A stretch of 64,000 nt of DNA from Mesorhizobium loti (GTDB lineage Bacteria; Pseudomonadota; Alphaproteobacteria; Rhizobiales; Rhizobiaceae), in NCBI RefSeq assembly GCF_001510895.1, contig NZ_LPWA01000112.1, positions 1 to 64,000 of the forward strand. The letters run 5' to 3'. The translations under genes were made by a program, and so were the position numbers. The notes beneath the pieces are model-generated. The model had not been told where the DNA came from. It saw only the letters and a list, made by a program, of their open reading frames with translations, and made no database searches. This document shows, piece by piece, positions 101 through 40,248 of this stretch. Position 1 is the stretch's first letter; every line of letters begins with the position of its first letter.

Positions 101-120
101 GTATTCCGCTAGCGGAATAC
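101..120. repeat. perfect 20-bp palindrome at the end of trbI
   Basis: The sequence GTATTCCGCTAGCGGAATAC is a perfect inverted repeat with no spacer, and the trbI stop codon lies inside it. It may be a protein-binding or recombination site, or a weak transcript hairpin; there is no T-run for a classical terminator. Upstream bases 1-100 hold no recognisable gene. Confidence 0.6.
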
Positions 121-1242
121 GAGATCGCGCGTGACGAGGACGCGTACGGGGAAACCCGGCCGTATCGTCAGTGTCGGCGCTATTTCGAGCTGGCGTTGGA
201 CGATCTGCTGACCGACCTGGCTGACGCTGTCGGAAGCGCCGCTTCGCAAGGCCCGCACGATGTCGCTCTCCTGGCCCGATGAGCCGGCCTCTGCCCCAAC
301 GCTGAGTATGGTCGAGAGCGCGGCCGCCTTGAACAGTTCGCCCCAGTGGTAGTCGACACCATCTTCGACGCCGGCATAGCCCTGCCCGTCCGCGCCAGGC
401 TGCCTCTCCAGAACAATGGATCGGCCGTCCGGGAAGATGAGCCTATTCCAAACAAGCAGCACGCGTCGTTGCCCGAACCCGATTCCGTTGTCGTATTGAC
501 CGATCACCCGGGTGCCCTGCGGGATCAGAAGCGCCCGTCCTGTCGGACTGTCGTAGACGTTCTCCGTCACTTGCGCCGCGATCTGACCAGGCAGATCGGA
601 GCGGATACCGGTGACGAGAGCGGCTGGTATGACGGCTCCGGCCTGTAGCACATAGACCGATGCCGGAGGCACGACGCGGTCGGGCGCCACAGTGCGTCGA
701 TCGGCGGCGGCATTGAGGAAGGCGAGCTGGCGATCCTGCGGTGTTTGACCGGCGGGACCGAGACCTGAGAAATCGGGCGGCACAGCAACACTAGCTGGAG
801 GTTCAGCGGCAGCCACTGTCACAGCCGCTGTCTGGAAGAAAACGCGCGACGTGCGGGCCGCCTCCTCTTCAGCCCGCCGGCGTTGTTCGGCCTCGTCGAC
901 TGTTGGCGTTGCCATTGTCGGCGGCACCACCGGCTGCCCCTTGTTCTGGGCATCAAGCAGCGGCCGGCCGAGATCGCCGGGCAGCGGCGGCCCAAGGACC
1001 GGACCGGTATAGTCGCGCGGCAGGCCAGCCAGGCCATCGGCGGGCTGTCGATTGGAGGTCGAATAGAGCTCCTTACTGTCAGTGCCGATATCGCGACCCT
1101 GAAGCGCATATATCAGTGCGCCTCCGATGCCGAGCGACGCGACGCAGCCTATGCCTGCGAGCACTTTGCGTGACAGCCGGGTCACACGCGACGGCTCGCC
1201 GCGCAGCCGCATCGGCTGAGCGGCGGTTTCGTTCTGGTTCAT
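109..1242 (-). CDS. trbI: TrbI/VirB10-type conjugal transfer protein
   Basis: This is the envelope-spanning scaffold of the Trb type IV secretion channel; it links inner-membrane ATPases to the outer-membrane TrbG pore. The 377-residue protein has a short cytoplasmic N-terminus, one membrane helix at about residues 26-47, a proline-rich periplasmic stretch, and the conserved C-terminal beta-barrel domain with VLQAGAVIPAALVTGI and the late IPQGTRVIGQYD motif. The ATG at 1242 is preferred over an in-frame start 69 bases upstream because AGGAG precedes it and it overlaps the trbG stop (ATGA). The C-terminus ends at RDLVFR, a few residues shorter than I recall for relatives, and the DUF2274 gene that usually follows is absent. 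Confidence 0.93.
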   Translation of the reverse strand: MNQNETAAQPMRLRGEPSRVTRLSRKVLAGIGCVASLGIGGALIYALQGRDIGTDSKELYSTSNRQPADGLAGLPRDYTGPVLGPPLPGDLGRPLLDAQNKGQPVVPPTMATPTVDEAEQRRRAEEEAARTSRVFFQTAAVTVAAAEPPASVAVPPDFSGLGPAGQTPQDRQLAFLNAAADRRTVAPDRVVPPASVYVLQAGAVIPAALVTGIRSDLPGQIAAQVTENVYDSPTGRALLIPQGTRVIGQYDNGIGFGQRRVLLVWNRLIFPDGRSIVLERQPGADGQGYAGVEDGVDYHWGELFKAAALSTILSVGAEAGSSGQESDIVRALRSGASDSVSQVGQQIVQRQLEIAPTLTIRPGFPVRVLVTRDLVFR

Positions 1243-2299
1243 GACTCCTGCCCTCCCCGCTGCCTCGGTACGTTCGTGACTTTCGGTGCTGCACCGAAGC
1301 CTGGCATCCACGGCAGTCGACGGGTTGCCGCGCCGTCACTACGCACGATCCTGACGGTCTGTTGCCGCTTGCTGCTGCCAAGGCGGAGTTCAGCAGCGCC
1401 GAAGAGGCGATCGACGATCAGGATATTTTGATAGACCCGGCCGTTGGCCATCTCAGCCTCACCGTCTGGACCAATGACAAAGATCGGCGGCATCTCGCCC
1501 TGCACGATCCCGCGCGGAAACTCGACGTAGACGCGCCTGCCATCGTCGTAGATGGCTACAGGCCTCCACGGCGGCGTATCGCCGGTGAGACGATAGCGGT
1601 AGTTGCGCGCAGCAACGTCCGGGATCATTGGCGTTGCGGGAATGGCTTGTCGCTGGCCGGCTGGTTTGGCCGGATATGCCCACGCCACGGCCGGCATGTA
1701 AGGCTTCTCATCCGCCCGCAACTCGATCATGTAGCTGCGCCGATCGGTGGTGATGACGAGATTGGTTGTGATGTCCGCGCGCGAGGGCTTGACCAGCACA
1801 TGGACGCGCCGGGTGATGCCCGACCCGCTTTCGGTATCGCCGATGATCCAGCGCGCGGTGTCGCCCGCCGCGATCGGGCCGGTGCCGGTCAGGCCCTCGC
1901 CCGGTTCAAGCGCGATGTCCGTTATCTGCCCGGGCGCGGCATAGACCTGGTAAAGCGCGCCTTCGCTCCAGGGATATATCTGGATGGCGTTATAGTAGCC
2001 TCGCGCCGAGGCTGGACGCGAGCGGCCGCGTTGGCGTTCTCGACTCGCGCTGTGGGCGTGTTGCCAACAGGCCCGCCTCGGGTCGCGGTCCAGCTCGGCG
2101 GGACATATAACGGTTTCGGCTTCTCATCAGTCGCGACAGCTGGGACCTTAGGCAACGGCGGCACGAAGGCATCGTAGGCGAACTGCGGCGGCTTTTGAGG
2201 TGTGGCACAGCCTCCGAGCAAGGCGCCAGAAATCAACATCGCCGCGCATGCATATCGATGAAAAGCATTAGTGGTCAAAATACGGAATGCCAGCTTCAT
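1239..2299 (-). CDS. trbG: TrbG/VirB9-type conjugal transfer protein, frameshifted
   Basis: TrbG is the outer-membrane-associated component that forms the channel core with TrbI. The N-terminal part has a lipoprotein signal ending in LLGGC (residues about 20-31). The C-terminal part, 1239 to about 2000, carries the VirB9 domain (YRYRLTGD, PRGI, PIFVIGPDGE, YQNILIVDRLF). The two parts lie in different frames. Adding one base near 1999-2000, where GAGGCTAC should read GAGGGCTAC, restores Arg-Glu-Gly-Tyr-Tyr-Asn-Ala and gives an uninterrupted 353-residue protein. It overlaps trbF and trbI by 4 bases on each side. The frameshift is a real mutation or a consensus error; I favour the latter. Confidence 0.88.
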
Positions 2300-2985
2300 T
2301 GGGTCATCTCCCGCGACCAGTTAATGGCGTTGACGTAGATGCCGAGCGGATTTACCCGAAGCCGTTCGGCGTCGCGCGGCGGCTGGACCACGATTGTCAG
2401 GATGGCGGTCCAGTGCTCGGTGGTGGAGAGCTGACCGTTTTCGTAATGACGCTCGGTCCAGGCGACGCGGAAGGAATCCGCAGATGCGCGGATGACCGAA
2501 GAGACTTCGACCGCGACCTGCTGTTTGCCGATCTTGGAGAAGGGTTCGTTGGCGCGGGCATAGTCGTTGAGCGCCGCCGCGCCCTGGTCGGTCGTCCATT
2601 CATAGGCGCGCAGCCAGTCCTGGCGCACGATGATCGGATCGGCCGGGATCGATCGGACCTGCTCGATGAAGCGGGCAAGGTGCCAGGCTATTTGTGGATC
2701 CGTCGGTTTATAGTCGGCGGCCGCGGGCGCGACCGCCTGCGCCTGCCCAAGAGCATCGACCTGCACGACCCAGGGCACGACTGAGCCCTTTGCCGACTGC
2801 CAGACAAGCGAGCCGGCGAGGCCAACCGACAGGATCAGCGATCCGAAGGCCATGTAGCGCCAGTTCCTGGCCTGCTCGCGCGCAGAGCCTATGCGCTCGT
2901 CCCAAACCTGCGCTGCCTTTTGGTAAGGCGTCTCCGGTTGAGGTGTCTTGCCGTAGTGAACGGCAGGTCGTCGGAAGATGTTCAT
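2296..2985 (-). CDS. trbF: TrbF/VirB8-type conjugal transfer protein
   Basis: TrbF is the bitopic inner-membrane assembly factor of the secretion channel. The 229-residue protein has a cytoplasmic N-terminus rich in aromatic and charged residues, one membrane helix at about 43-63, and a periplasmic NTF2-like domain with VPWVVQVDALG and the conserved ending NPLGIYVNAINWSREM. The stop overlaps the trbG start (ATGA). Length and features match the family, and no break is seen. Confidence 0.93.
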   Translation of the reverse strand: MNIFRRPAVHYGKTPQPETPYQKAAQVWDERIGSAREQARNWRYMAFGSLILSVGLAGSLVWQSAKGSVVPWVVQVDALGQAQAVAPAAADYKPTDPQIAWHLARFIEQVRSIPADPIIVRQDWLRAYEWTTDQGAAALNDYARANEPFSKIGKQQVAVEVSSVIRASADSFRVAWTERHYENGQLSTTEHWTAILTIVVQPPRDAERLRVNPLGIYVNAINWSREMTQ

Positions 2986-2988
2986 GGA

Positions 2989-4365
2989 TCACTTGCCTTC
3001 TGAGAGGGAAATGGAGGTTCCGTTGCCGTGGGCCTCGCCGGAGCGCACGGCGTGGGCCGCGGTCTGGATGCCGTGGGAGAGGCGCTGGGATCGCTGCATG
3101 CGTTTGGCCCAGTCAGGCGGGCCTTGTGCTGCGCCGCTGACTTGGCCAGCGCGACCAGGCGATGGATCGTTGGCAGGCTCGGCCGCGCCTCCGACCGTCC
3201 CCAGTGTCGATGAACCACCCGTCACTTCGACTGCAGAACTGAGGCCCGAGGCGAAGCTCGACTTCACTGATTGACTGGCGCGCGCCGCAGCACGCTTGAG
3301 TGGCGAGGCTGCGCCGGAGAGAGCGGCGCCTGCGACGCCGCCTAGACCGGAGGCAACCCCGGCAGCGCCCGTCTGACCGGCCGACCCGAGGGAATAGGCA
3401 GTTGACGCCCCGCCCGCCAGGAACGCGCTGCTTCGCGCCGCGGAAGCCGCTCCGGAGAAAGCGGCTCCCCCGCCCCGCATTGCAACGCCGGCAGCGCCGC
3501 CGGCGACGAGCGTCATGCCGCCAGCGGCGAGGCCCGCGCCAACTGCGGCGCCTGCGCCAAGCTGTGGTCCGCCGGAGACGAGGCCATTGGCAATGCCAGG
3601 GCCGAAGATGCCGAGACCAAGCAGCGACAGTGCCGCCAGCACGATCGCCATGGCTTGGTCGATGGTGGGATTCTCGCCACCGAAACCTTGGGTGAATTCG
3701 CTGAAGAGCGTCGAGCCGATGCCGATGACCACGGCAAGAACAAGGACCTTGATACCGGACGAAATGACGTTGCCGAGCACGCGTTCAGCCATGAAGGCCG
3801 TCTTGCCGAAGAGGCCGAACGGGATCAGGACGAAGCCTGCCAGCGTCGACAGCTTGAATTCGATCAGCGTGACGAAAAGCTGCACAGCCAGGATGAAGAA
3901 GGCAAGCAGGACAAGCGCCCAGGCGAAAAGCAAGCAAGCGATCTGGATGAAATTTTCGAAGAAGGACACATAGCCCATCAGTCCGGAAATGGCCTCGAGC
4001 AAGGGACGTCCCGCGTCAAGCCCGGTCTGCGCAACCTTGCCGGGGCGCAGCAGGTCCTGAATCGAGAAGCCGGTGCCGCTTGCCTTGAGGCCGAGGCCGG
4101 AGAAGCTTTCGAAGACGATCCGGGCAAGACCGTTCCAGTTGGAAATCAGGTAGGCAAAGACGCCCACGAACAGCGTCTTCTTGACGAGCCGCGCGAGGAT
4201 GTCGTCATCGGCGCCCCAACTCCAAAAGAGGGCCGCGAGCGTCACATCGATGACGATCAGGGTAGTAGCGACGAAAGCGACTTCGCCGCCGAGCAGGCCG
4301 AAGCCGCTGTCTATGTAACGCGTAAACGTGCCGAGGAATTGGTCAATAATGCCGGTGCTGCCCAT
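2989..4365 (-). CDS. trbL: TrbL/VirB6-type polytopic conjugal transfer protein
   Basis: TrbL is the polytopic inner-membrane protein of the Trb channel. The start is placed at 4365 (MGSTGIIDQFLGTF), where the family begins; an in-frame start 114 bases upstream adds a non-homologous leader that overlaps trbK. The 458-residue protein has several hydrophobic segments between residues 20 and 290, then a long low-complexity Gly/Ala/Ser tail ending in a basic stretch, as usual for TrbL. It follows trbK with 2 bases between them and precedes trbF by 3 bases. Confidence 0.92.
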   Translation of the reverse strand: MGSTGIIDQFLGTFTRYIDSGFGLLGGEVAFVATTLIVIDVTLAALFWSWGADDDILARLVKKTLFVGVFAYLISNWNGLARIVFESFSGLGLKASGTGFSIQDLLRPGKVAQTGLDAGRPLLEAISGLMGYVSFFENFIQIACLLFAWALVLLAFFILAVQLFVTLIEFKLSTLAGFVLIPFGLFGKTAFMAERVLGNVISSGIKVLVLAVVIGIGSTLFSEFTQGFGGENPTIDQAMAIVLAALSLLGLGIFGPGIANGLVSGGPQLGAGAAVGAGLAAGGMTLVAGGAAGVAMRGGGAAFSGAASAARSSAFLAGGASTAYSLGSAGQTGAAGVASGLGGVAGAALSGAASPLKRAAARASQSVKSSFASGLSSAVEVTGGSSTLGTVGGAAEPANDPSPGRAGQVSGAAQGPPDWAKRMQRSQRLSHGIQTAAHAVRSGEAHGNGTSISLSEGK

Positions 4366-4367
4366 GC

Positions 4368-4691
4368 CTATCGCGCCCCCGGCGCGTTCGCATCCGGCGA
4401 CAGCGGGGGGAGCGGCTGTGAAGTCGAGCTCACAAATGGCGCTTTGGAACCGAGGAAACGGTCGCGCTGCTCGGTCCACAGGCGCAGACAGCCGCTGTCG
4501 CGCAACGCACCCTCACCGAGCAACTGGCAACGGCGAAGACCGTCGCGAAGCGGGCCGTGCGAGGGCGCCGGCGCCTCGAGCACTGCTGCGCCCGGCTTGT
4601 CCTGCTTCCGGGTCATCTCGACAACTGTCGCGGTCACTGCGAGGGCGATGAAGATCACGGCGACGATGCGGGCAAGTGTCTTGCCGTCCAC
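4368..4691 (-). CDS. trbK: TrbK-like entry-exclusion protein
   Basis: A 107-residue small envelope protein starts at GTG (4691), preceded by GAGGA. Residues about 7-26 form one membrane segment; the rest is periplasmic with two cysteines. Position between trbJ and trbL and size match the alternative TrbK family of rhizobial elements, which is inferred to block redundant transfer into cells already carrying the element. Sequence conservation in this family is weak, so the name rests largely on position. Confidence 0.75.
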   Translation of the reverse strand: MDGKTLARIVAVIFIALAVTATVVEMTRKQDKPGAAVLEAPAPSHGPLRDGLRRCQLLGEGALRDSGCLRLWTEQRDRFLGSKAPFVSSTSQPLPPLSPDANAPGAR

Positions 4692-4702
4692 TGTCGTGAT
4701 CC

Positions 4703-5461
4703 TCAGCGGTTAAACATCGAGGCATTGCCGGCCTGGTAACCCGGACCGGGGGCGAGGAAGCGGCGGCGCTGCTCGCGACCCTGTTCGGCAGCAGCCGTCC
4801 GTTCGGCTTCTGTCAGCGCCTGGGCACGACCGTTGGCGGCGACGACGGCGGTGAGGTCGCTGAGTTGCTGGGCCTGGAGTGCGAGAAGCTGATTGCCGGC
4901 CTGCGTTGCCTGCAGCGCGCCGGTCGCGGATTGGCTGGCGCCGATCAGCGCCGACATTTGGGAGCGATTGGTCTCGATATTGCCGACGACACCGGCTTGT
5001 ACGCGCATGGCATCCTGGAGGCCGCCAACCGTGTTTTGCCAGCGCGAGCGGGCATCCGCGACGAGCTGCTGGTCCGAAGCGGAAAGCGAGCCGGCGCCGT
5101 ATCGCTGCTGAAAGATCCTGTCGACCTCTTGAACGTCGAAGGCGACGTTCTGCGCCTGGCTGAGGAGTTGCTGCGTTCGCTGTATCGACTGCTGCAATTG
5201 CTGGAGGGAGGAAAACGGCAGGCTTGCGAGGTTGCGGGCCTGGTTGATCAGCATCTGCGCTTCATTCTGAAGCGAGGTGATCTGGTTGGTGATCTGCTGA
5301 AGTGACCGTGCCGCAGTCAATACATTCTGCACGTAGTTCGACGGATCAAAGACGATGAACGCATGCGCCGGTGCAACCACTATAGGCGACACCAAGAGCG
5401 GCGGAGCGAGCATTGCCGTGGCCAGGACGAAGGCGCGCGAGCGGATGCGAAAGGCATTCAT
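4703..5461 (-). CDS. trbJ: TrbJ/VirB5-type conjugal transfer protein
   Basis: TrbJ is a secreted, largely helical protein thought to act at the pilus tip or in channel assembly. The 252-residue protein has a signal peptide ending near PAHA (about residue 33), the family motif FDPSNYVQNVLTAARSLQQITNQI, and long heptad-like helical stretches rich in Gln, Leu and Ala. Its ATG overlaps the corrected trbE stop (ATGA), indicating translational coupling. Confidence 0.93.
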   Translation of the reverse strand: MNAFRIRSRAFVLATAMLAPPLLVSPIVVAPAHAFIVFDPSNYVQNVLTAARSLQQITNQITSLQNEAQMLINQARNLASLPFSSLQQLQQSIQRTQQLLSQAQNVAFDVQEVDRIFQQRYGAGSLSASDQQLVADARSRWQNTVGGLQDAMRVQAGVVGNIETNRSQMSALIGASQSATGALQATQAGNQLLALQAQQLSDLTAVVAANGRAQALTEAERTAAAEQGREQRRRFLAPGPGYQAGNASMFNR

Positions 5462-7913
5462 GATTGGGTCTCCTTTTCGGCTTGGGGGATGAGGGTGGGA
5501 ACGTCACGGATGAGGTCGGCCGCCCAGCCGGCGTTTCGCGCACGCAGCCAGGCGGCGAGGAAATCGTCGCGGCCATGCTCGGCAGCGATCCTGGCAATGA
5601 GAGCCTGATCGGTCTTGGAGGATGCTGCACACAGCGCGAGACCGATCTCCGACAGGCCGAGTTCAAAGAGACGATTGCCGCGCCGCGACTGGCAGTAATA
5701 GTCGCGCTTTGGGGTCGCGCGCGCAGGATTTCCACCTGGCGGTCATTGAGGCCGAAGCGACGATAGATCGCCGTGATCTGCGGCTCGATCGCACGCTCGT
5801 TCGGTAACAGCAGCCGGGTCGGGCAGCTTTCGATGATCGCTGGCGCGATCTTCGAGTTGTCGATGTCGGAGAGAGACTGCGTGGCGAATATGACGCTGGC
5901 GTTTTTCTTGCGCAGCGTCTTCAGCCATTCGCGAAGCTGGGCCTCAAAGCCCTCGTCCTCGAGCGCAAGCCAGCCCTCGTCGATGATCAGCAATGTCGGC
6001 CGCCCGTCGAGCCGGTCACCGACGCGATGGAAAAGGTAGGACAGAACGGCTGGCGCTGCCCCGGTCCCAACGAGGCCCTCGATCTCGAACGCCTGCACGG
6101 ATGCCGAGCCAATGTGCTCGGCTTCTGCGTCAAGCAATCGGCCGTATGGACCACCGATGCAATAAGATCCCAGAGCCTGCTTCAGATCGTTCGATTGCAG
6201 CAGCACATTCAGGCCGGTGATGGTGCGCTCCTCGACCGGCGCCGAGGCGAGCGATGTCAGCGCGGTCCAGATGTGCTCCTTGACATCGGGGGTGATGGGG
6301 ATGCCTTCGCGCGCAAGGATCGCCACGATCCAGTCGACCGCCCAGGCGCGCTCGTAGGTGTCGTGGACGCGTTGGAGAGGCTGCAGCGAGACGGAAGCCT
6401 GGCTCCCCTCGGTGAGCCCGCCCCCGAGATCGTGCCAGTCACCGCCCATGGCCAGTGCTGCGGCGCGGATCGAGCCGCCGAAGTCGAAGGCGAAGACCTG
6501 CGCGCCGGTGTAGCGGCGAAACTGCAGGGCCATCAGCGCGAGCAGCACAGACTTGCCCGCACCGGTAGGGCCGACAACAAGCGTGTGACCGACGTCGCCG
6601 ACATGCAAGGACAACCGGAACGGGGTCGAGCCTTCGGTCTTGCCGTAAAGCAAGGGAGGACTACCCAAATGCTCGTCCCGTTCCGGCCCCGCCCACACGG
6701 CAGAGAGGGGGATCATGTGGGCGAGATTGAGCGTCGAGATGGGCGGCTGGCGGACATTGGCGTAGGCATGCCCTGGCAACGAGCCGAGCCAGGCGTCGAC
6801 GGCATTGACGGTTTCGACTATTGCCGTGAAATCGCGCCCCTGGACGACTTTCTCGACCAGGCGCAGTTTCTCATCCGCAAGACGCGGGTCGGCATCCCAG
6901 ACCGCGATGGTCGCGGTGACAAAGGCCAGCCCCGAGGCGTCAGCGCCGAGTTCCTGTAATGCCAAGTCGGTGTCGGCCGCCTTGTTCGCGGCGTCCGTGT
7001 CCACAAGCACGGACGCCTCGTTCGTCATGACCTCCTTCAGGATTGCGGCGACGCTCTTGCGCTTGGCAAACCATTGCCGCCGGATTTTGGTCAGCAGCTT
7101 CGCAGCGTCAGTCTTGTCGAGAAGGATTGCGCGCGTCGCCCAGCGATAGGCAAAGGCGAGCCGGTTGAGGTCGTCGAGCAGCCCTGGCGTGGTCGCGGTC
7201 GGAAACCCGACGATGGTGAGCACGCGTAGATGCTGATCGCCAAGGCATGGCTCGAGCCCACCGGTCAGTGGCTGGTCCGCCAGCAGCGCATCGAGATAGA
7301 TCGGCGTCTCCGGAACACGCACCGTATGGCGCTCGGTGGAAACAGTCGAATGCAGATAGGTCAGTGTCTCGCTGTCATCGAGCCACTGGCATTCCGGCAT
7401 GAAGCCGTCGAGCAGGGAGAGCACGCGCTCCGTGCGGTCGACAAAGGCGCGCATGGCTTCGTGGGGATCCAAGTCCGAATGCTCGCGGCCCTCGTAAAGC
7501 CACCTCTCCGCGCGAGCGACGTTCTCGGCCGGCGGCAGATAGACGAATGTGAGGAAGTAGGTCGACACGAAGTGGATCCCCTCCTCCTCGAAGTCGGCTT
7601 TGCGCTCGGCATCGACCAAGCCTGAGGCAGGGTCGGGAAACTGGCTCTCGGGATATGTCGCCGCCTCGTGCCGCTGCGCCTCGACGAAGATTATCCAACC
7701 CGAGCCGAGGCGGCGAAAGGCATTGTTGATGCGAGAGGCCACCGCAACCGGTTCGGCCGCGACGGCGGAATCGAGATCGGGACCGCGAAACTTCGCGGTG
7801 CGCTGAAAGCTCCCGTCCTTGTTGAGGACGACGCCGGGCGCGACGAGGGCAACCCAGGGCAGATAATCGGCGAGGCGGCTGGCAGTGCGGCGGAATTCGG
7901 CAAGGTTCATCAT
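5458..7913 (-). CDS. trbE: TrbE/VirB4-type ATPase, frameshifted near the C-terminus
   Basis: TrbE is the large ATPase that powers assembly and transfer. The start is at 7913 (MMNLAEFRRTASRL); a longer reading frame upstream adds 46 non-homologous residues. The CagE/VirB4 domain covers about residues 1-430, Walker A GPTGAGKS is at 448-455 and Walker B LLIIDE is at about 641-646. Near 5724 one G is missing (CTGCGC for CTGGCGC). Restoring it replaces a spurious tail with RATPKRDYYCQSRRGN and an ending of about 80 residues that stops in ATGA with trbJ; total 818 residues. I see no slippery heptamer or other sign of programmed frameshifting. Confidence 0.9.
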
Positions 7914-7924
7914 GGCCGCGTCCC

Positions 7925-8200
7925 TCAAACCGACAGATGACCGGGGATGCGCAGATGCCGGCGGCCGACTTCCACGAACAGCGGATCGCGTTTGGCTGCC
8001 CACACCGCCGTGAAATGGCCGAGCGCCCACAGGAGGAGACCGACCAGCCACAGGCGTAACCCGAGGCCGACCGCGCCGGCGAGCGTGCCGTTCATGATCG
8101 CGATGGAGCGAGGTGCGCCTGCGAGCAGGATATGCTCGGTCAATGCTTTGTGGACGGGAGCGGTGAACCCCGGCACCACATCGAGCTGCTCGAGAGACAT
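7925..8200 (-). CDS. trbD: TrbD/VirB3-type conjugal transfer protein
   Basis: A 91-residue inner-membrane protein that anchors the channel next to the TrbE ATPase. It has the family pattern GFTAPVHKALTEHILLAGAPR, then a double hydrophobic stretch (about residues 36-67) and a short basic C-terminus ending HLRIPGHLSV. The ATG at 8200 overlaps the trbC stop (TGATG). A longer in-frame start only runs back through trbC and trbB and is not credible. Confidence 0.92.
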   Translation of the reverse strand: MSLEQLDVVPGFTAPVHKALTEHILLAGAPRSIAIMNGTLAGAVGLGLRLWLVGLLLWALGHFTAVWAAKRDPLFVEVGRRHLRIPGHLSV

Positions 8201-8532
8201 CAGATGAGTGCTCCGCCGCCGAATGAGAAGAACGACAGGAAGAAGCTCGACGCCGCGAAGGCGATCGACAGGCCGAAGACGATCTGGATCAGCCGCCGGA
8301 AGCCTCCGGAGGTATCGCCGAAGGCAAGTGTCAGACCGGTCACGATGATGATGATGACGGCAATGATCTTGGAGACCGGGCCTTCGATCGACTGAAGGAT
8401 CTTCTCCAGCGGCTGCTCCCAAGGCATCGACGAGCCGGCCGCGAAGGCGGCAGGGGCAACCGTGAGACCGAGAACCAGGCTCGAGGCTGCAGCAGCGATA
8501 TGATTTTGGGCTCGCGAGAATGCGCTCATCAT
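8200..8532 (-). CDS. trbC: TrbC/VirB2-type conjugative pilin
   Basis: This is the major pilin subunit precursor. The 110-residue protein has a long signal peptide cleaved near AAFAAGS (about residue 32) and two hydrophobic helices at about 55-75 and 85-105, separated by a short basic loop (GGFRRL). This is the VirB2 fold. It lies directly after trbB, whose stop overlaps its start. Two consecutive ATG codons (8532 and 8529) leave the exact start open. Confidence 0.93.
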   Translation of the reverse strand: MMSAFSRAQNHIAAAASSLVLGLTVAPAAFAAGSSMPWEQPLEKILQSIEGPVSKIIAVIIIIVTGLTLAFGDTSGGFRRLIQIVFGLSIAFAASSFFLSFFSFGGGALI

Positions 8533-9512
8533 GAATTATCTCCATTGTTGTTCGGGGTAGCTTGGGAGGTGCGATAATCGCCGTTGGGACCAAGCCCTTC
8601 GACGCGGGTGAGTTCGGTGAGCCGGCGCGCGGAACCGCGTCCGGAAAGAACAGCGACGAGGTCGATGGTTTCTGCAATCAGCGCGCGCGGAACGGTGACA
8701 ACGGCTTCCTGGATGAGCTGCTCGAGACGGCGCATGGCGCCAATCCCGGAGCCAGCGTGGATGGTGCCGATGCCGCCTGGGTGTCCGGTGCCCCATGCCT
8801 TGAGAAGATCGAGTGCTTCGGAGCCGCGCACCTCGCCGATAGGGATGCGATCGGGTCGCAGGCGCAATGAGGACCGGACCAGGTCTGCAAGCGTGGCGAT
8901 ACCGTCCTTCGTTCGCATGGCGACAAGGTTGGGGGTGGCGCACTGCAATTCGCGTGTGTCCTCGATGATGACGACACGGTCGGCGCTTCTTGCCACCTCG
9001 GCGAGCAGGGCATTGGTCAGCGTTGTCTTGCCGGTGGATGTGCCGCCGGCGACCAGGATGTTGGCGCGGGCGGTGATGGCGGCACGCAGCGTCGCCGCCT
9101 GATTGAAGGTCATTATGCCTGCCGTGACGTAGTCATCGAGCGTGAACACGGCGACGGCGGGTTTGCGGATGGCGAAGGCTGGCGCAGCGACAACGGGCGG
9201 CAGCAAGCCCTCGAAGCGTTCTCCGGTTTCTGGCAACTCCGCCGAGACGCGCGGGGAGCGCGAATGGACCTCTGAGCCTACATGATGCGCGACCAAGCGA
9301 ATGATGCGCTCGCCATCGGCGGCCGTCATCACCTCACCTGTATCAACCAGACCTTCTGACAGCCGGTCCACCCAGATACGACCGTCTGGATTCAGCATCA
9401 CTTCGACGATGGCGGCATCGTCAAGGAACCGGGCGATGGCAGCTCCAAGTGCTGTCCGCAGCATGCGCGAAGAGCGCAAGCGTCTTTCTGTGTTGTTGTG
9501 AGAAACTGCCAT
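8529..9512 (-). CDS. trbB: TrbB/VirB11-type conjugative transfer ATPase
   Basis: TrbB is the hexameric traffic ATPase that energises pilus biogenesis and DNA transfer. The 327-residue protein has the N-terminal domain (residues 1-125), Walker [10 protein letters not shown] at 156-164, the acidic box IIEDTRELQ near 182-190, and the His box GIGTIHAGS near 247-255. It is the first gene of the minus-strand trb run. In typical rhizobial elements it follows traG and a CopG-like gene; here those lie 21 kb away on the other strand. Confidence 0.95.
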
Positions 9513-9867: not shown

Positions 9868-10122
9868 ATGACCGACCAGATCGCTCGCAACGAGAAGCAA
9901 CTCGGCGCCATCCTGCGTCGCGCCCGCAGGCAGGCCGACCTCACGCAAGAAACGCTTGGCAACCAAATCCACCTGCGCCAGGCAACGGTGTCTCGCCTTG
10001 AAGCTGGCGAACCAGCAGTACAGCTCAGCACCTTGATGGCTGCTCTATCCGCCCTCGACCTCGAGCTCGTCGTTCGCCCACGCAGCAAAGGCAGCGCCGC
10101 TGAGATCGAGGATCTGTTCTGA
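9868..10122 (+). CDS. hipB: HipB-like HTH antitoxin/repressor
   Basis: An 84-residue helix-turn-helix protein. Residues about 11-64 form a Cro/C1-type HTH (LGAILRRARRQADLTQ, NQIHLRQATVSRLEAG). The C-terminal tail (EIEDLF) is short and acidic, as in HipB-type antitoxins. Its stop overlaps the hipA start (TGATGG), the usual antitoxin-then-toxin order. It is expected to bind the four upstream palindromes and to neutralise HipA. Confidence 0.88.
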   Translation: MTDQIARNEKQLGAILRRARRQADLTQETLGNQIHLRQATVSRLEAGEPAVQLSTLMAALSALDLELVVRPRSKGSAAEIEDLF

Positions 10123-11432
10123 TGGCGCGGCGACCGGCTCACACGCCGCTAAATGTCTTCCTAAACGGGCGCCTAGTGGGCGTACTGCGCAGGGAATCCA
10201 CGGGCGCCGTAGACTTCCAATACGCCCGCCAATGGCTGGACTGGCGCAGTACTTTCCCGGTCTCGCTCTCGCTTCCCTTGCGGGAGGACCGCTATATCGG
10301 CGCGCCTGTGATCAACGTCTTCGACAACCTGCTTCCTGACAATGACGCTATCCGCAAACGCGTTGCCGAACGCGTCGGCGCGGCTGGCACGGACGCCTAC
10401 AGCATGCTCGCAATACTCGGCCATGACTGCGTCGGCGCACTGCAATTCCTCCCCGATGGCATCGACCCCGGCAATCCCGGTAGCAGCGACGGCAAGCCGG
10501 TCAGCGACAAGGACATTGCCGGGATGATCAAGAACCTTGCGGCCGCTCCTTTGGGCCTCGGCGAGGACGAGGATTTCCGAATCTCGATTGCGGGCGCCCA
10601 AGAAAAGACGGCGTTGCTTCGCAAGGGCAGGCGCTGGTTCAAGCCGGTCGGCACGGCGGCGACCACCCACATCCTGAAACCACAGATTGGTAGACTGCCG
10701 AACGGCATCGACCTTTCCCATAGTGTTGAGAACGAATATTTGTGCCTTAGGCTGCTCAAGGCGTTCGGCGTCCCTGCCGCCCATGCAAGGATGACCGATT
10801 TCGGGGAGCGCCGAACGCTTATCGTCGAGCGCTTCGACCGGCTGTGGGCTCGCGACGGTCGCCTTCTGCGCCTGCCGCAGGAGGATATCTGTCAAGCGCT
10901 GTCGGTGCCGTCGACGCGCAAATATCAGTCCGATGGCGGTCCCGGCATCGCTGAGATCGTCGAGCTTTTGAAGGGTAGTGACACGCCCGAAGAAGACGTC
11001 GCGATCTTTCTGCGCGCCTGCATCATATTCTGGCTGATCGGCGCGACCGACGGCCATGCAAAGAATTTCAGCGTCTTTCTTGGCCCCGGCGGGAGGTTCC
11101 GCATAACCCCCCTCTATGACGTAATGACCGCGCAGCCGAGCCTTGATGCTGGACAAATTCCCCGCAAGAAATTCAAGTTGGCAATGTCGGTCGGCAAAAG
11201 CCGGCACTATTCGGTGCATGAGATTATGCCCCGCCACTTCATGCAGACAGCTGACATTGCTGGCGTAGGCATCCCTGTCATGCGCCGAATTTTCGAAGAC
11301 ATTGCCAGAAACGCGGAGAAGCAGGCTGACACCGTGATCTCCTCACTGCCGCATGGCTTTCCTGGACAGCTTGTCGACTCAGTCAGGTCGGCCATAGGCA
11401 GGCGTGCGATGCTTCTTGCCGATGCAAATTGA
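10122..11432 (+). CDS. hipA: HipA-family serine/threonine kinase toxin
   Basis: HipA-type kinases phosphorylate a translation-related target (GltX in E. coli) and cause growth arrest; the target here is unknown. The 436-residue protein has the HipA N-terminal domain (LNVFLNGRLVGVLRR, then FDNLLPDND near residue 70), the nucleotide-binding GAQEKTALL at 158-166, a lysine strand near ILKPQIG, and the catalytic loop GATDGHAKNFS with Asp310, followed by the metal-binding YDVMTAQP. All key residues are present and the frame is intact, so the toxin is probably active. Confidence 0.9.
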   Translation: MARRPAHTPLNVFLNGRLVGVLRRESTGAVDFQYARQWLDWRSTFPVSLSLPLREDRYIGAPVINVFDNLLPDNDAIRKRVAERVGAAGTDAYSMLAILGHDCVGALQFLPDGIDPGNPGSSDGKPVSDKDIAGMIKNLAAAPLGLGEDEDFRISIAGAQEKTALLRKGRRWFKPVGTAATTHILKPQIGRLPNGIDLSHSVENEYLCLRLLKAFGVPAAHARMTDFGERRTLIVERFDRLWARDGRLLRLPQEDICQALSVPSTRKYQSDGGPGIAEIVELLKGSDTPEEDVAIFLRACIIFWLIGATDGHAKNFSVFLGPGGRFRITPLYDVMTAQPSLDAGQIPRKKFKLAMSVGKSRHYSVHEIMPRHFMQTADIAGVGIPVMRRIFEDIARNAEKQADTVISSLPHGFPGQLVDSVRSAIGRRAMLLADAN

Positions 11433-12147: not shown

Positions 12148-12307
12148 TCGATCCTCCTTTATTCGTTGAGACGGATGGTAACCCGCCAGGCACCGACCGC
12201 AAAATCACTTTTCGGCCGCCGCGTCCGCCGCAAGGATATTGAAGGGAATTCGGACGACCCGGCCCGATAGGATTATATTTGAGGTTGAGGTTCGCCAGAC
12301 TTCTTTC

Positions 12308-12345
12308 ACAGGATTTGAACCTGCGACCCCATCGTCCCGAACGAG
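12308..12345 (-). other. tRNA-Pro(CGG) 3'-half fragment, probable att site
   Basis: On the minus strand the block reads from a proline anticodon loop with CGG (CGTTCGGGACGA), through GGGGTCG, to the T-arm AGGTTCAAATCCT. It matches the layout of bacterial tRNA-Pro(CGG). The 5' half and the acceptor stem with its 3' end are both missing, so it is not a functional tRNA. It lies 67 bp from the 3' end of the integrase gene, as expected of an integrase attachment core. Confidence 0.6.
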
Positions 12346-12411: not shown

Positions 12412-13719
12412 TTATTTCCGGCGATTCTGTGGGGTAACTGTGGGGTAGCCGGAAATGTTCTCTTTCTGTACCAAGAGCATCCTGACGGTGTTTTTGGGCA
12501 CGTTTCGCAAACGTGGCTTGGAGACGATCGCCCGGGTGGCTTCGGCCTGAAAATCGGGGTGATGGTGCCCATAGGTCTCAATCAGCATTTCAACCGTCAT
12601 GCCGAGAAAGCCGGCGGCCTCCCACCGGTCGGTACCCTGCTGCATCAGCCAGGTCGCGGCTGTGTGGCGGAAGACGTGCGGCGTGATGTCAGTGCGGAAT
12701 ACGCGCCGAATGCTACCGTCTGGTGCTGCCACGTTGTCATACCAGCCGAGCCCGGCCGCCTCGACCACCGAGCGGAAGGCTTTCTTGATCGACTGCACTG
12801 GTTTGCCGTTCCACTCTACGACGTGGTCATGCGCGATCATGCGGCCAATGTTTGCGCTCTTCCCGCGGCCCTTGGTCTTGATCTCCAACGGCGTTACCGC
12901 CCAGCGACGCACATGTGCAAGCAGCCGGTCAGGCAACCTGACCGGCGGTTGGCGCTTGTTCGTCTCGCGGCGGGCGGTGCGGCGGTAGAAAATGCCGTGT
13001 TCGAGGTCGATATGTCCGGCGCCCTCTGTTGGTCGGATGGCCGCTCTGCAGATCGCCGCCGACCGGGTGCCGGTGTATAGAGCAACCAGGATGAATCGCG
13101 CGACGTGGTGTGCGGTGCGGCGGTCGCTTGGCTTACCCTTCCATGACTGGCGCATGCGCCATGCGGCGCGAAGCAACGCTGCGGCCTCATTGCGGGTCAG
13201 CCAGCGGTCGCGCGGCAGCGGCTTCGCTGGCAGCACGATCGCAGGCGTCGAGGTTACATAGCCCTCTCGATGATAGTGGTTCAGCGCTGCGCGCAGATCC
13301 TCCAACTGACGTCTGGCAGCGGTGCCATTGCCGTTCACCTTTGCGTAGTCGCGACAGACCTTGCCATTGATGTCGCCGATTTTCGTGTTGCCGAACCACT
13401 TTAGCACAGCGATCAACCGTTCGGCGGTTTCCTTTGGCTTGGCGTGTAAGGGCGCTACCTCGGTAAGATAAGCGCTAACGGCGTCGGCTACCGGGACGGT
13501 GGCCGGATCGCGGCCGCGCTCGCGGGCTGGCCAGTATTTTTCGACGATGTATTGGGCGAGCCGTTTCTCAGCGCGTTCGCGGTCGCCAGTGCTACCGCAA
13601 GCGCTGATGAAGGTTGCGCCATCGCGGATGTACCAGCCGGCTCCGTTACGCAGGCTGCCGTCCGCCTTTCTGCTTTCAGCGCGCCAGACCAGGCGCGCCC
13701 CTTTCGACGTCCGCGGCAT
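12412..13719 (-). CDS. int: tyrosine site-specific integrase
   Basis: A 435-residue phage/ICE-type tyrosine recombinase. The N-terminal arm-binding region and SAM-like core-binding domain cover about residues 20-165. The catalytic domain has Arg219 (LYTGTRSAA), the box HVFRHTAATW with His348 and Arg351, and nucleophile Tyr383 in ETYGHHHPD. It probably integrates and, with the overlapping excisionase-type protein, excises the element; the adjacent tRNA-Pro fragment suggests its target. The frame is intact. Confidence 0.93.
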   Translation of the reverse strand: MPRTSKGARLVWRAESRKADGSLRNGAGWYIRDGATFISACGSTGDRERAEKRLAQYIVEKYWPARERGRDPATVPVADAVSAYLTEVAPLHAKPKETAERLIAVLKWFGNTKIGDINGKVCRDYAKVNGNGTAARRQLEDLRAALNHYHREGYVTSTPAIVLPAKPLPRDRWLTRNEAAALLRAAWRMRQSWKGKPSDRRTAHHVARFILVALYTGTRSAAICRAAIRPTEGAGHIDLEHGIFYRRTARRETNKRQPPVRLPDRLLAHVRRWAVTPLEIKTKGRGKSANIGRMIAHDHVVEWNGKPVQSIKKAFRSVVEAAGLGWYDNVAAPDGSIRRVFRTDITPHVFRHTAATWLMQQGTDRWEAAGFLGMTVEMLIETYGHHHPDFQAEATRAIVSKPRLRNVPKNTVRMLLVQKENISGYPTVTPQNRRK

Positions 13720-13910: not shown

Positions 13911-14799
13911 TGCATGCTTCTCGTTTGAATCCGGAGGAACAATCTCGTCATCGCTTAGTGTTTGAGCCTCTGAGATGATCCGACACTGGCCAGACAGTTG
14001 CCCGATGTGACCGAAATTTTTCGCCGGTAAGCACAGGATCCATCGGCATCAAATAGCTGAAGCATAGCTGGCACTATCCCGAGGTCATTTCTCACCACCA
14101 GGTATTTATGCGTTTGAAAAGTACGCATCTAAGAACCGTATGTGAACGGCACTAGGCCTCTTATGCGGTGATTAGGACGCTCTCGCGTAAAAAACGGCGG
14201 TGTATAGGGAAGGAAGAACTTATGAAAATCGCGCTGCCGTTCGATCCTGGGACCGTTTGAACCCGTCTGGAACGATGGTGAAACGATCTCTTTGGACCTC
14301 GCTTGCCGCATCTTGGGTGAAGCGAGGGAGGCGAGCCTAAAGCCCATTAGGGCTGTCTGGGCCGCGTTGAGATGGCGCTCGATCGCTTCGATACTTGCCA
14401 TGACCTCTTCGAAGGCAGGCGGCGCCCCAAAAATCATTGCGGACGTTGGGATCCAGCACAGTTCTGCCTTAGACTGTCCGAAGACTATATAATAAAAAAT
14501 TGGTCATCAGCGGCGTTCTGACCAGAGTTTATATTCAAAAATTGGTCAGTAGCCAGCCAAGACGCGAGGCGGCAAAAATATCCGCCTTCGAACATCATCA
14601 CTTGGTAACTTCGACGACGTCCTGAACGCCCAACAAGACGGTTCACGAAGGTATCGCCAATGAGTTGCTCGCGCGGTGCCGGCCAAGGCCGCGATCTTGC
14701 GGCGACGTCACCGCGATAGAGTGAGAGTGTGGATTGGCTTTTCCACGACGGGTCGAAAGCTGGGGAGAGCCCCCCAGCGCCTGTCGCGGAGAAATCACG
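13911..14799. other. 889-bp region without a confident gene
   Basis: I see no convincing gene. A minus-strand frame at 14129-14437 has a helical stretch (VMASIEAIERHLNAAQTALMGF) but no family. Two copies of AAAAATTGGTCA (14495-14506 and 14537-14548) lie 42 bp apart in an AT-rich patch that contains TATAAT at 14488-14493, so a regulated promoter is possible. Confidence 0.45.
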
Positions 14800-15759
14800 A
14801 TGTCCAATCACCATCACCGACGCGAAGCCGCTGCCGGCCGGGCGAGCCTCTATGACGAGATAACCGACAAGATCATCTCGCAGTTGGAGGCAGGTCGGCT
14901 TCCTTGGGTTCAGCCCTGGGGGAGCGCGGCGGCCAAGGCGCCGCTATCGCTGCCCCGGAACGCCAGCACCGGCAGAGCATATAGCGGCATCAATGTGCTT
15001 ATCCTGTGGGGCGCTGTCGTCGAGCAGGGCTATACGGCCCAAAGCTGGCTGACTTTCCGCCAGGCCCTTGCGCTCGGCGCAAACGTTCGGAAGGGCGAGC
15101 ATGGCACAACCGTCGTGTACGCCGATCGCTTTGTTCCCGACGATGAGAAGAAACGCGCCAGAGATACCGGCGAAGATGCCCGGCCGGTTCCGTTTCTCAA
15201 GAAGTTCACCGTGTTCAATGCCGACCAATGTGAAGGTTTGCCGCAAGACATGGCAGCTTCCCCGCTACCGGACCCGGCCCTGATCGAGCCGCGCGTTGAG
15301 GCCCTGATCAAGGCCACAGGCATCGAATTCCGCATCGGCGGCGATCGAGCCTATTACTTGCCAACCCAGGACCGCATTCAAGTACCGCCGCCTCAAGCCT
15401 TCTTCGAGCCTATCAACTGGCATCGCACGGCGCTGCATGAACTTGGCCATGCCACGGGCCATCCCTCACGTCTTGCGCGCGACTTCTCCGGCTCCTTCGG
15501 AACCAGAAAGTATGCGTTCGAGGAACTCGTGGCAGAGATCAGCGCCGCCTTCTCGTGCGCTGCTTTGGGCATCGTTCCGACCGTGCGGCATGCCGACTAC
15601 ATCGGATCATGGCTGGAGGTGCTGCGGCAGGACAATCGCGCTGTCGTGCGTGCTGCCAGCCTGGCCGGCAAGGCGGCCAACTGGCTCCTCGGCCATCTGC
15701 CAGAGGAAGTCGCGCTGCCCATCGAGGTGGATGTCGACCAGAACAGGAGGGCAGCCTGA
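14800..15759 (+). CDS. ArdC-like antirestriction protein / zincin metallopeptidase
   Basis: ArdC proteins combine an N-terminal single-stranded DNA-binding domain with a C-terminal zincin-like peptidase and protect incoming conjugative DNA from restriction. The start at 14800 (MSNHHHRREAAAG) is chosen over one 66 bases upstream. In the 319-residue protein the N-terminal domain spans about 15-150 (LPWVQPWG, GINVLILW, VRKGEHGTTVVY). The zinc motif HELGHATGHPSRL has His213, Glu214 and His217. It heads an operon with the two following genes (stop overlaps next ATG). Confidence 0.9.
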   Translation: MSNHHHRREAAAGRASLYDEITDKIISQLEAGRLPWVQPWGSAAAKAPLSLPRNASTGRAYSGINVLILWGAVVEQGYTAQSWLTFRQALALGANVRKGEHGTTVVYADRFVPDDEKKRARDTGEDARPVPFLKKFTVFNADQCEGLPQDMAASPLPDPALIEPRVEALIKATGIEFRIGGDRAYYLPTQDRIQVPPPQAFFEPINWHRTALHELGHATGHPSRLARDFSGSFGTRKYAFEELVAEISAAFSCAALGIVPTVRHADYIGSWLEVLRQDNRAVVRAASLAGKAANWLLGHLPEEVALPIEVDVDQNRRAA

Positions 15760-26024: not shown

Positions 26025-26306
26025 ATGCGACCTGATCTAGCCGTTTTGCCGCCGCGCTTTCTGCGCACCAAGGAAGCTGCCGAGTTCCTCAGCCTGTCAT
26101 CGCGCACGCTCGAAAAACACCGCACTTACGGCACGGGTCCCGCCTACCGCAAACTTGGCGGCCGCGTCGTCTATGCCGTTGACGACCTCCAGGCCTGGGC
26201 TCAGCGCGGCGCGGTGACTTCGACTTCCGACCCTCGTGGTTCCGTGCTTCCCGCCAAGCGCCATCCGCCGGCGGCTTCCACACCGACCGGGCGCTACGTG
26301 CGCTGA
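26025..26306 (+). CDS. AlpA/excisionase-like HTH protein
   Basis: A 93-residue protein with a MerR/excisionase-type helix-turn-helix at about residues 10-58: FLRTKEAAEFLSLSSRTLEKH, then GPAYRKLGGRVVYAVDDLQAW. The C-terminus is a Pro/Ser-rich tail. CGGAGG lies 8 bases before the ATG. It precedes DUF2840 and traF, its standard place in rhizobial elements. It is likely a regulator of excision or transfer genes. Confidence 0.85.
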   Translation: MRPDLAVLPPRFLRTKEAAEFLSLSSRTLEKHRTYGTGPAYRKLGGRVVYAVDDLQAWAQRGAVTSTSDPRGSVLPAKRHPPAASTPTGRYVR

Positions 26307-28647: not shown

Positions 28648-28750
28648 GCCGCCCTGATGCTCTTCGCCCCATCTCGTGCTCTTGCGTGCCATGGCGTACG
28701 GTCGGGGCAGGCCAAGGCAACCCGACTGAGCGATGGCAGGATAAAAGGCC

Positions 28751-28834
28751 GCACATTGCGCGCCGATCGGACGATGGGATTTGCAAGGTTCTCAGGCCCG
28801 CGTCGCACATTGCAGCCCCTATGGGCAATGTGCG
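28751..28834. other. candidate oriT with 10-bp hairpin
   Basis: CGCACATTGC (28804-28813) and GCAATGTGCG (28825-28834) form a perfect 10-bp stem with an 11-base loop, 57 bp before the relaxase start. A further direct copy of GCACATTGC lies at 28751 and a partial one (CACATTGCAG) near 28871. The inverted repeat next to the relaxase gene is the classical layout of an origin of transfer; the nick site is not identifiable from sequence alone. Confidence 0.55.
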
Positions 28835-28890
28835 CCAAACGTCGGAAGCCTTGTATGCGCGTCGTCTTTTCCACATTGCAGGACAGCGCC

Positions 28891-30630
28891 ATGGCCGATG
28901 AGCGCGCGTTTCGCATTCGGCCAGGTCGCATCCGCTCGACCCGCGCTCAAGCTGCACGGCCCTTCATCGCCCAGGCGCTGGCGGCGGCGAAAAAAGCTGG
29001 CGGTGGCGTCTCGCGCTCGGGAAAAGTCGTTTGCGGCAACCGCTCCAGGTTTGGTCACGGACAGCGCGCCAGCATCCAGGCCAATCGCCTTATCACCTCA
29101 CGATCGCGCGGCGCGGTCGTAAAGGCTCGCGTTGTCCGTCGTACCGCGAGCGCTGCCTCACTGGCCCCACATCTCAGTTATCTGCGTCGGGAGGGCGTGA
29201 CCCGGGACGGAGAGAAGGCAGGGTTGTTCGGGCCGCAGACGGGGGATGCCGATGGCACGGCCTTCGCCGCGCGCGCCAAGGATGATCGGCACCATTTCCG
29301 TTTCATCGTCTCTCCCGACGACGCCCTCGAGATGGCGGACCTCAAATCCTTCAGCCGCGATCTGGTGGGGCAGATGGAGAAGGACCTCGGCACTGGGCTC
29401 GACTGGGTCGCTGTCGATCACTGGAACACCGAGCATCCGCACGTTCATCTGATCGTGCGCGGCGTGCGCGACGACGGCCAGGATCTGGTCATTGCGCGCG
29501 ATTACATCAAGGAAGGCATGCGGGACCGGGCTCGCGACCTGATCACTCAGGAGCTGGGGCCGCGAATCGATCTCGACATCCGCCGCTCACTCGAAAGCCA
29601 GATCCAGTCCGAACGCTGGACCCAGCTTGATCGCCAGTTACTTCGCGACAGCTGCGACACCGGGGTCATCGATTTGGCCCAACGCCCGCATTATCAGCCC
29701 GACGAATATCATGCGCTCAAGATCGGCCGTCTGCGGAAGCTCGAAGCGCTTGCTCTCGCCGACCAGGTCGGCCCGGGCCAATGGGTCCTCGACGACCAGG
29801 CCGAAGCGAGGTTGCGCGAGTTGGGCGAGCGTGGCGACATCATAAAGCGCATGCATCGCGCACTGACCGAGCGAGGGATCGAGCGGGGTTCGGCCAGTTA
29901 TGTGTTGGCCGCCGAAAGTCTCGATACTCCCATTGTCGGCCGGCTGGTCGATCGCGGACCCGATGATGAACTGAGCGGTGCGGCCTACGCGGTTGTCGAC
30001 GGCATTGACGGACGTATCCATCACATCAGATTTTGCACTCTGGATGCCGCCGGCGACGGCCCGCCGGGATCGATTGTCGAGCTGCGCAAGTTCGATGATG
30101 GGCGCGGCCAGCGTCGGGTCACGCTTGCGGTATGCTCCGATCTGACTGTGGATGAACAGGTTACGGCACCGGGCGCGACCTGGCTCGACCGCCAGGCAAT
30201 TGCTGGCGAACCTGCCGCATTGGCGAAGGGGGGCTTCGGCGCCGAGGTCGGCGACGCCTTGGACCGCCGGGCCGAACATCTGGTCAATCAGGGACTCGCT
30301 GAGAGGCAAGGCAACCGCATCATCTTCAGCGCAAACCTGCTCGATACGCTGTGCCGCCGCGAACTGGAGATCGTTGGCGACAAGCTCGCGACCGACAGCG
30401 GACGGCCCTTCAACCGTGCTGCCAGCGGTGACTACGTTGCCGGCGCCTATGGTCAACGCCTGTCTCTCGCCTCCGGCCGTTTCGCCATGATCGACGACGG
30501 ATTTGGCTTCCAACTCGTACCCTGGACGCCCTCTCTCGAAAAACATCTCGGCCAGCATGTGTGCGGTGTCGCTCGTGGTGACGGCGTCGTTGACTGGAGC
30601 TTTGCCCGCAAGCGCGGGCTCGGTCTCTGA
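28891..30630 (+). CDS. relaxase/mobilisation nuclease with DUF3363
   Basis: This is the probable relaxase that nicks oriT and leads the DNA strand into the recipient. The start at 28891 (MADERAFRIRPGRIR) is the family start; the frame is open upstream but not homologous. In the 579-residue protein the N-terminal nuclease half carries the histidine motif HPHVH at 182-186 (TEHPHVHLIVRG) and the strand RFIVSPDDA. The C-terminal DUF3363 half spans about residues 250-575. The frame is intact. It is followed after 23 bases by traG. Confidence 0.9.
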   Translation: MADERAFRIRPGRIRSTRAQAARPFIAQALAAAKKAGGGVSRSGKVVCGNRSRFGHGQRASIQANRLITSRSRGAVVKARVVRRTASAASLAPHLSYLRREGVTRDGEKAGLFGPQTGDADGTAFAARAKDDRHHFRFIVSPDDALEMADLKSFSRDLVGQMEKDLGTGLDWVAVDHWNTEHPHVHLIVRGVRDDGQDLVIARDYIKEGMRDRARDLITQELGPRIDLDIRRSLESQIQSERWTQLDRQLLRDSCDTGVIDLAQRPHYQPDEYHALKIGRLRKLEALALADQVGPGQWVLDDQAEARLRELGERGDIIKRMHRALTERGIERGSASYVLAAESLDTPIVGRLVDRGPDDELSGAAYAVVDGIDGRIHHIRFCTLDAAGDGPPGSIVELRKFDDGRGQRRVTLAVCSDLTVDEQVTAPGATWLDRQAIAGEPAALAKGGFGAEVGDALDRRAEHLVNQGLAERQGNRIIFSANLLDTLCRRELEIVGDKLATDSGRPFNRAASGDYVAGAYGQRLSLASGRFAMIDDGFGFQLVPWTPSLEKHLGQHVCGVARGDGVVDWSFARKRGLGL

Positions 30631-33093: not shown

Positions 33094-33208
33094 GCTCTTG
33101 TTCGCGCCAGCTGCCAATCCGCCTGATGGCGAGCCTAGGTGCCAGACATTTTCCTCTGCCGTTTGCCCGCCAATGGTACCCAACCGGCGGGAGTGTCGCG
33201 GTTGTCGT

Positions 33209-33316
33209 CCCCGACATGCCTCGAACTGCCAATTCCCCGAGAAAGCGACTGAACGGCACGATATCTTGGTGGACATTGGCCCGCTCGAGGGCGGGCATGA
33301 AGTCGGCGCGGCGTTG
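33209..33316 (-). pseudogene. possible Fic-protein C-terminal remnant
   Basis: About 36 residues (QRRADFMPALERANVHQDI, PFSRFLGEL) resemble the C-terminal helix of Fic-domain proteins. No HPFxxGNGR core is found upstream. It lies in 33094-33568, where I see no intact gene. Similarity is judged by eye only. Confidence 0.35.
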
Positions 33317-33904: not shown

Positions 33905-33909
33905 ACTAG

Positions 33910-34332: not shown

Positions 34333-34353
34333 CGGGCTACCGGTGGGAAGTCG

Positions 34354-38032: not shown

Positions 38033-38033
38033 G

Positions 38034-40230: not shown

Positions 40231-40248
40231 CACGGCCAAGGTTTCTTG

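Follow-up and report, generated by a model that had tools for sequence, protein, structure and literature searches.

A tRNA-Pro(CGG) fragment beside a tyrosine integrase gene in the window (the whole 64,000-nucleotide stretch of Mesorhizobium loti DNA analyzed here, which begins contig C112) is the displaced half of an attR site, inverted relative to its attL. We consider it most probable, at roughly 80%, that this core-P' half belongs to an ICEMlSymR7A-type ICE at tRNA-Pro(CGG) and was displaced by an inversion that would leave the ICE trapped. The present layout is established by comparison with related genomes, and from these sequences we infer an inversion in its history. The parts are ordinary, and their unusual order is common to several relatives.

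The tRNA-Pro(CGG) core and the surrounding ICE

Positions 12309-12344 match the intact tRNA-Pro(CGG) gene on another contig of the same genome (C142:31496-31569, called tRNA-Pro cgg by ARAGORN) in 36 of 36 bp, and both flanks diverge. The assignment of the block to the host tRNA-Pro(CGG) gene in the original prediction is thus borne out, lack of identity having been tested for and not found; its extent of 12308-12345 gave the right location with one extra base at either end. The tRNA sense of the core is on the minus strand. As judged by eye, the core covers the anticodon loop, the 3' anticodon stem, the variable region, and the T-arm. Locally it lacks the 5' half as well as the acceptor strand, just as had been predicted. 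It is the sole match in the window at up to three mismatches, where 100 shuffles gave an expectation of 0, and a pattern search with one mismatch allowed found two cores in the genome. Neither ARAGORN nor Rfam at gathering scores detected a tRNA in the window, and no repeats were found inside 12200-12450. Across 30 loci among the genome's 48 tRNA matches, ARAGORN called one tRNA-Pro cgg and one tRNA-Pro tgg.

The window carries an ICE of the ICEMlSymR7A type, whose integrase family uses the tRNA-Pro(CGG) gene. The backbone of this type is present (trb T4SS, TraG, RlxS, RdfS, TraF, and DUF736), with RlxS and TrbI scoring below their cut-offs (Table 1). Within the trb operon, TrbF, TrbL, TrbJ, TrbE, and TrbB pass the NCBIfam cut-offs and TrbI fails, and domain matches were obtained for VirB3-like, the TrbI/VirB10 family, and CagX. 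The plus strand from 24 to 32.6 kb encodes DUF736, the RdfS-like protein, DUF2840, a signal peptidase (Peptidase_S26), a transglycosylase (SLT), the RlxS-like relaxase, and TraG. On the window strand, a gap of 67 bp lies between the core and the integrase ORF to its right. The integrase residues R216, H348-x-x-R, and Y383 are presumably catalytic. The closest relatives of this integrase in the genome scan (the best 24 loci, 58-89% identical) are all from Mesorhizobium, and the lower-ranked matches come from other Hyphomicrobiales, mostly Bradyrhizobium.

About 6.3 kb (17105-23461) without alignment to genomes G103, G046, or G076 holds an epoxide hydrolase gene, an NB-ARC-type regulator gene, and a truncated XerD-like integrase gene (22823-23461), and looks like an insertion into the ICE. 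At 78-83 kb of C112, the G+C content drops from about 60-66% to 50-53%, which suggests another acquired region. In the window, the small gene that follows traG is broken up into two reading frames, compared with ORFs of ~158 codons in relatives.

Table 1. Coordinates of the core, the two joints, and the neighboring genes in the window
Feature	Position	Strand	Basis
trb operon (TrbI, TrbG/CagX, TrbF, TrbL, TrbJ, TrbE, VirB3-like, TrbB), acceptor side of core	109..9512	-	profile matches
HipA-like gene between trbB and core	10122..11432	+	HipA_C, Couple_hipA; adjoins trbB in G103, G076, G046
Left joint: ICE-side sequence in place of acceptor stem	12217..12308	.	homology to G046 to about 12291; to G076 ends at 12216
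tRNA-Pro(CGG) core, integrase-side half of ICE attR, facing inward	12309..12344	-	36/36 identity; same core adjoins integrase in relatives
Tyrosine integrase, 435 aa	12412..13719	-	PF00589; R216, H348-x-x-R, Y383 present
Two CTGTGGGG repeats, proposed integrase arm sites, P' side	12427..12434, 12438..12445	+	putative role
ArdC-like gene	14734..15759	+	ArdcN, MPTase-PolyVal
RdfS-like recombination directionality factor	26025..26306	+	phmmer to PDB 8dgl RdfS, E 5.3e-10; HTH_17
RlxS-like relaxase	28657..30630	+	DUF3363, Relaxase; NCBIfam RlxS 570.6 bits, below cut-off 850
TraG coupling protein	30654..32633	+	1224.9 bits vs cut-off 674
Small gene after traG	32639..33090	+	ribbon-helix-helix-like by eye; no Pfam match; homology to G103 ends at 33073
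Remnant, C-terminal end of Fic-family gene	33188..33376	-	tblastn with Fic proteins of G139, G088: E 9e-19, 5e-17
Acceptor strand CCACTGCGACCAG of tRNA-Pro(CGG), one mismatch	33380..33392	+	native tRNA 3' flank on to about 33426
Lipoprotein-like gene (by eye), chromosomal side of right joint	33569..33904	+	same gene between tRNA-Pro and opp in G003, G001
Oligopeptide (opp) transporter genes, chromosomal	36416..41840	-	adjoin tRNA-Pro in genomes without ICE there

Orientation of the ICE and its right joint

The integrase was found at E <= 1e-60 in 34 of 146 genomes of the genus, this genome included, and the normal layout can be read from relatives. In eight rows of the comparison (G103, G093, G052, G007, G058, G125, G068, and G069), a full acceptor comes after the integrase-side core, which points toward the chromosome; the lipoprotein gene and then opp come next, except in G058, where opp follows immediately. 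At the other end, 8 of the 14 tRNA sites shown have an attL in which core and acceptor precede a TCTGTGGGG repeat pair; of the remaining sites, one carries a single repeat plus a variant, one is truncated by the end of its contig, and four have no repeats (all by eye). At the tRNA-Pro locus of G040 (C31, L226), two direct cores are 616 bp apart.

The window departs from this layout. G103 has the order trb-hipA-[small gene-traG-rlx...ardC-int-P'-core-acceptor]-lipoprotein-opp-glg with direct repeats, whereas the window, G046, and G076 have trb-hipA-...-[core-P'-int-ardC...rlx-traG-small gene]-...-opp, in which the bracketed part is reversed and its neighbors are the same. As a result of this order, in the window and the single-contig relatives G046 and G076 alike, the core points toward the trb genes of the ICE itself. 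By hand count, 9 of the 11 pairs on two-core contigs among the genomes listed as far as G121 are direct repeats and those of G046 and G076 are inverted, a count that includes G026, G031, G048, and G099, which lack a close relative of this integrase or any relative at all. Direct attL/attR repeats are not what we find: the cores have opposite orientation in G046 and G076 and also in the present genome, where the order rests on synteny. Nor is the site a normal attR with core, acceptor, and chromosome in succession, for its flank is ICE DNA and the acceptor is 21 kb away. ICE genes flank the core and integrase on both sides, in agreement with the earlier proposal that they are not at a live chromosomal border. 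The final 92 bp before the core match well to G046 only.

The partner attL is on C142. In G103 and G046, sequence corresponding to C142 in reverse abuts that of C112, with C142:94 and C112:119 or 122 at most 10 bp apart, and this synteny, which is not proof, points to a join of the two contigs. If they join as in these relatives, attL is ~44 kb from the core and inverted to it. The ends of C142 and C112 do not overlap. The facing contig ends carry a 42-bp inverted repeat (95%; C142 about 57-98, window 58-99), perhaps the cause of the assembly break, and a circular contig was rejected because its ends share no exact overlap of 15-399 bp. C142 also encodes a second integrase (82% identical) 2.2 kb downstream of tRNA-Pro (L033 5940-7304), with its own core decayed to about 8 bp as judged by eye; in total, the ICE parts of C112 and C142 hold two related integrases and one truncated one.

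The acceptor that the core lacks is found at 33380-33392, ~21 kb from the core and at the present right border of the ICE. The 13-base acceptor match is not strong alone (mean of 0.05 expected; 5 of 100 shuffles had one), so the weight is carried by a 48-bp alignment of this region to G003, which spans the acceptor and the native 3' flank (85%, E 1e-8 in a small set). The ICE breaks beyond the small gene after traG, and the Fic remnant that follows, identified with two query proteins that both belong to PF02661, stops three bases before the acceptor. The two joints jointly keep the 3' part of the tRNA without loss (...CCTG on the left, CCACT... on the right), and from these joint sequences the break point would fall between the T-arm and the acceptor. 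The same right joint is present in G076 and G090. The prediction had also offered a decayed junction, which holds insofar as the site is the integrase-side half of attR; the acceptor was split off by rearrangement and survives at the right joint. Two other readings of this region were discarded: a T-loop-like string just before 33380 is not a decayed second core, for Fic homology reaches 33376 and covers it, and a 421-aa ORF (32639-33904) is not a single gene, as its frame runs on from the small gene across the Fic remnant into the chromosomal lipoprotein gene.

To the right of this joint is chromosome, with opp and glg genes extending rightwards from 36.4 kb. In G003, G011, G054, and G082, opp adjoins tRNA-Pro with no ICE at that place, and glg follows too in G003; G054 and G082 have the ICE elsewhere in the genome. 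A Fic/DUF4172 gene (34653-35768, within 33905-36415) is located between the lipoprotein gene and opp in the window; in G046, G076, and G088, about 200 bp or less separates the lipoprotein gene from opp.

In the inversion model, one break would have hit a fic gene of the ICE, past the small gene that follows traG, and the other the tRNA copy of attR, between the T-arm and the acceptor. The segment core-int-ardC-...-rdfS-...-rlxS-traG would then have been turned around, leaving the core facing the trb operon, and the acceptor would have stayed with the chromosome at 33380.

Inward-facing cores in relatives and alternative origins

Further inward-facing cores were found in G047, G088, and G056, and a more distant inward group comprises G087, G014, G096 (where rlx adjoins opp), G142 (with about 3 kb between), G131, G054, G051, and G040, among which G131, G051, G054, and G040 were counted as inward-facing though opp was not seen beside the ICE. 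The comparison of outward- and inward-facing cores covers 22 rows. It leaves out G082, whose core is 2.4 kb distant from int, and G039, where int has no core nearby, as well as G139, G095, and the C70 locus of G142 (near contig ends or with unclear neighbors) and the remnant in G090, whose int2 lacks a core of its own. Second integrase copies in G000, G046, G056, and G095 and integrase matches of <=47% identity (G145, G031, G009, G050, G026, G017, and G124) are likewise excluded. All 8 outward-facing cores retain the sequence CGGAGTGG, compared with 6 of the 14 inward-facing ones (Fisher p 0.018, a value that ignores shared ancestry). In-frame stops interrupt the integrase in three of the 14 inward rows (G056, G088, and G096) and in none of the eight outward ones.

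Within the window's group of six rows, the 36-bp core has nine variable columns and a mean distance of 0.094, against 0.096 for the integrase, and the next 75 bp have a distance of 0.147 with 27 of 75 columns variable. As judged by eye, seven of the nine variable core columns are at the left edge, which is eroded in G046 and G088, and the other 28 core columns show two changes, in G047 and G088. This distribution hints that the inner core may be under constraint.

The joints of the relatives are not uniform. G076 has the acceptor at both joints and an 8-kb segment, here called segment X, at its left joint; segment X is located between the lipoprotein gene and the core in G068 and G069, and part of it is at the right joint of G047. 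Given the joint structures of G076 and G047, one inversion does not explain every relative. Segment X was considered as the cause of acceptor loss through a single deletion and was rejected, since the right-joint acceptor of G076 indicates a more complex history.

This variety bears on how the inverted structure arose. Instead of an unrelated double break, the cause could have been the integrase, or homologous recombination between inverted copies of the fic and small-gene sequences, an explanation that overlaps with our preferred one and that we regard as possible without favoring it. The break points differ in G047 and in G087, G014, G096, and G142; in the latter four, chromosomal homology starts ~45 bp past the tRNA 3' end as seen by eye, and at both joints of G088 the small-gene tail and the fic 3' end are present as inverted copies. 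Against this explanation, the break in the window falls between the T-arm and the acceptor and not at the end of the anticodon loop, where attP/attB identity stops, and the edges differ among genomes. In addition, no inverted copy of the right joint was found near the window's left joint, with only one weak match elsewhere in the genome.

The repeats around the core address another origin, an intact attP that went unused while the ICE integrated elsewhere through another integrase. TGTGGGG occurs at +119 and +130 from the core start in the window, G076, G047, G056, G046, G088, G014, G103, G093, G052, and G007; the pair is shifted by one or two bases in G058, G096, and G142 (C20), a single copy is on the P' side in G087, G131, and G051, and none was found on that side in G054, G040, G125, G068, and G069. 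The attL on C142 carries TGTGGGG at -67 and -55. To the left of the window core, none was found within 400 bp, and a single distant copy is on the left side in G076, G056, and G014. The repeats are presumably integrase arm sites. The core in the window therefore has a P' pair on one side, and its other side shows neither an acceptor nor, within 400 bp, a P pair. The attP-type core of the original prediction is rejected by this arm-repeat test: the window flank lacks both the acceptor stem and the TGTGGGG pair that the attL arm has on C142 and in relatives at -67/-55. An unused attP would explain why the core has ICE genes to either side, and it could draw on the truncated XerD-like integrase and on G040, G051, G054, and G082, where opp is within about 5 kb of tRNA-Pro and the core-int ICE is on another contig. 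Nevertheless, with the P arm at attL, neither acceptor nor arm repeats on the left of the core, and a tRNA acceptor at the right ICE-chromosome joint, this origin is quite improbable.

Equally improbable is plain decay, in which a normal attR at a live chromosomal border lost its acceptor to point mutation or deletion. Flank trimming does occur, as seen from the differing edges of inward-facing cores in other genomes, but what lies beyond the core is trb genes and not chromosome, and the acceptor persisting at 33380 rules against this reading. An assembly artifact or collapsed repeat is the least credible explanation, for although the genome is a draft of 185 contigs with 5.37% contamination, the identical layout occurs in the single-contig chromosomes of G046 and G076.

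Predicted behavior of the inverted site and relation to known ICEs

If C142 and C112 join as in the relatives, attL and the core are inverted repeats, and Int with RdfS would turn around the ~44-kb segment between them without releasing a circle. In that event tRNA-Pro(CGG) would be damaged, since the flank has no acceptor stem to supply and the gene would be left lacking one. Judging from the sequence layout, the ICE is expected to be trapped, barring some other way out. The perfect retention of the core in the window is unexpected for a long-dead site and counts against the model. A bolder proposal, which we hold to be doubtful, is that Int remains active at the inward-facing attR and that, in the inverted ICEs of this family, Int/RdfS inverts the tRNA-Pro-to-core segment in place of excision; this would be a trapped state and a possible source of multipartite ICEs, in which acceptor loss would make inversion costly by breaking tRNA-Pro(CGG).

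Non-symbiotic ICEs at tRNA-Pro in Mesorhizobium are listed, and the same backbone is described, in sections of Colombi et al. 2021 (PMC8627217). As far as those sections describe ICEMlSymR7A-type ICEs, the element shares with them trb, traG, rlxS-like and rdfS-like genes, DUF736, DUF2840, a TraF-like signal peptidase, and a transglycosylase (PMC8627217). It differs from this type in that attL and attR are inverted and the integrase segment is flipped, which places traG apart from trb. In sections of Haskett et al. 2018 (PMC5882170), it is suggested that the prototype ICE3 may have formed after two chromosomal inversions. As in the tripartite ICE3 ICEMcSym1271 described there, the att sites are displaced within one chromosome (PMC5882170); unlike that element as described in those sections, three matched integrase/att pairs were not seen among the integrases and core sites covered here, and one att half lost its acceptor. 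For polypartite Bradyrhizobium symICEs, parts of a further paper (PMC9174649) report head-to-head att sites whose recombination inverts DNA and mention 'locked-in' elements; in that account the inversions belong to regular integration, whereas here the break cut the att site itself (PMC9174649). No paper describing an inverted attR without its acceptor turned up in a limited search of one open library.

The window thus offers a visible case in which an inversion probably broke into an ICE and divided its att site. With the layout visible and common to several relatives, its predicted consequences, namely absence of the circle, inversion, and the fate of the tRNA, are directly testable. Tripartite ICEs have been suggested, in the sections cited above, to arise by inversions between ICEs (PMC5882170). 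More generally, acceptor-less tRNA scraps beside an integrase gene can signal rearranged ICEs and not attP.
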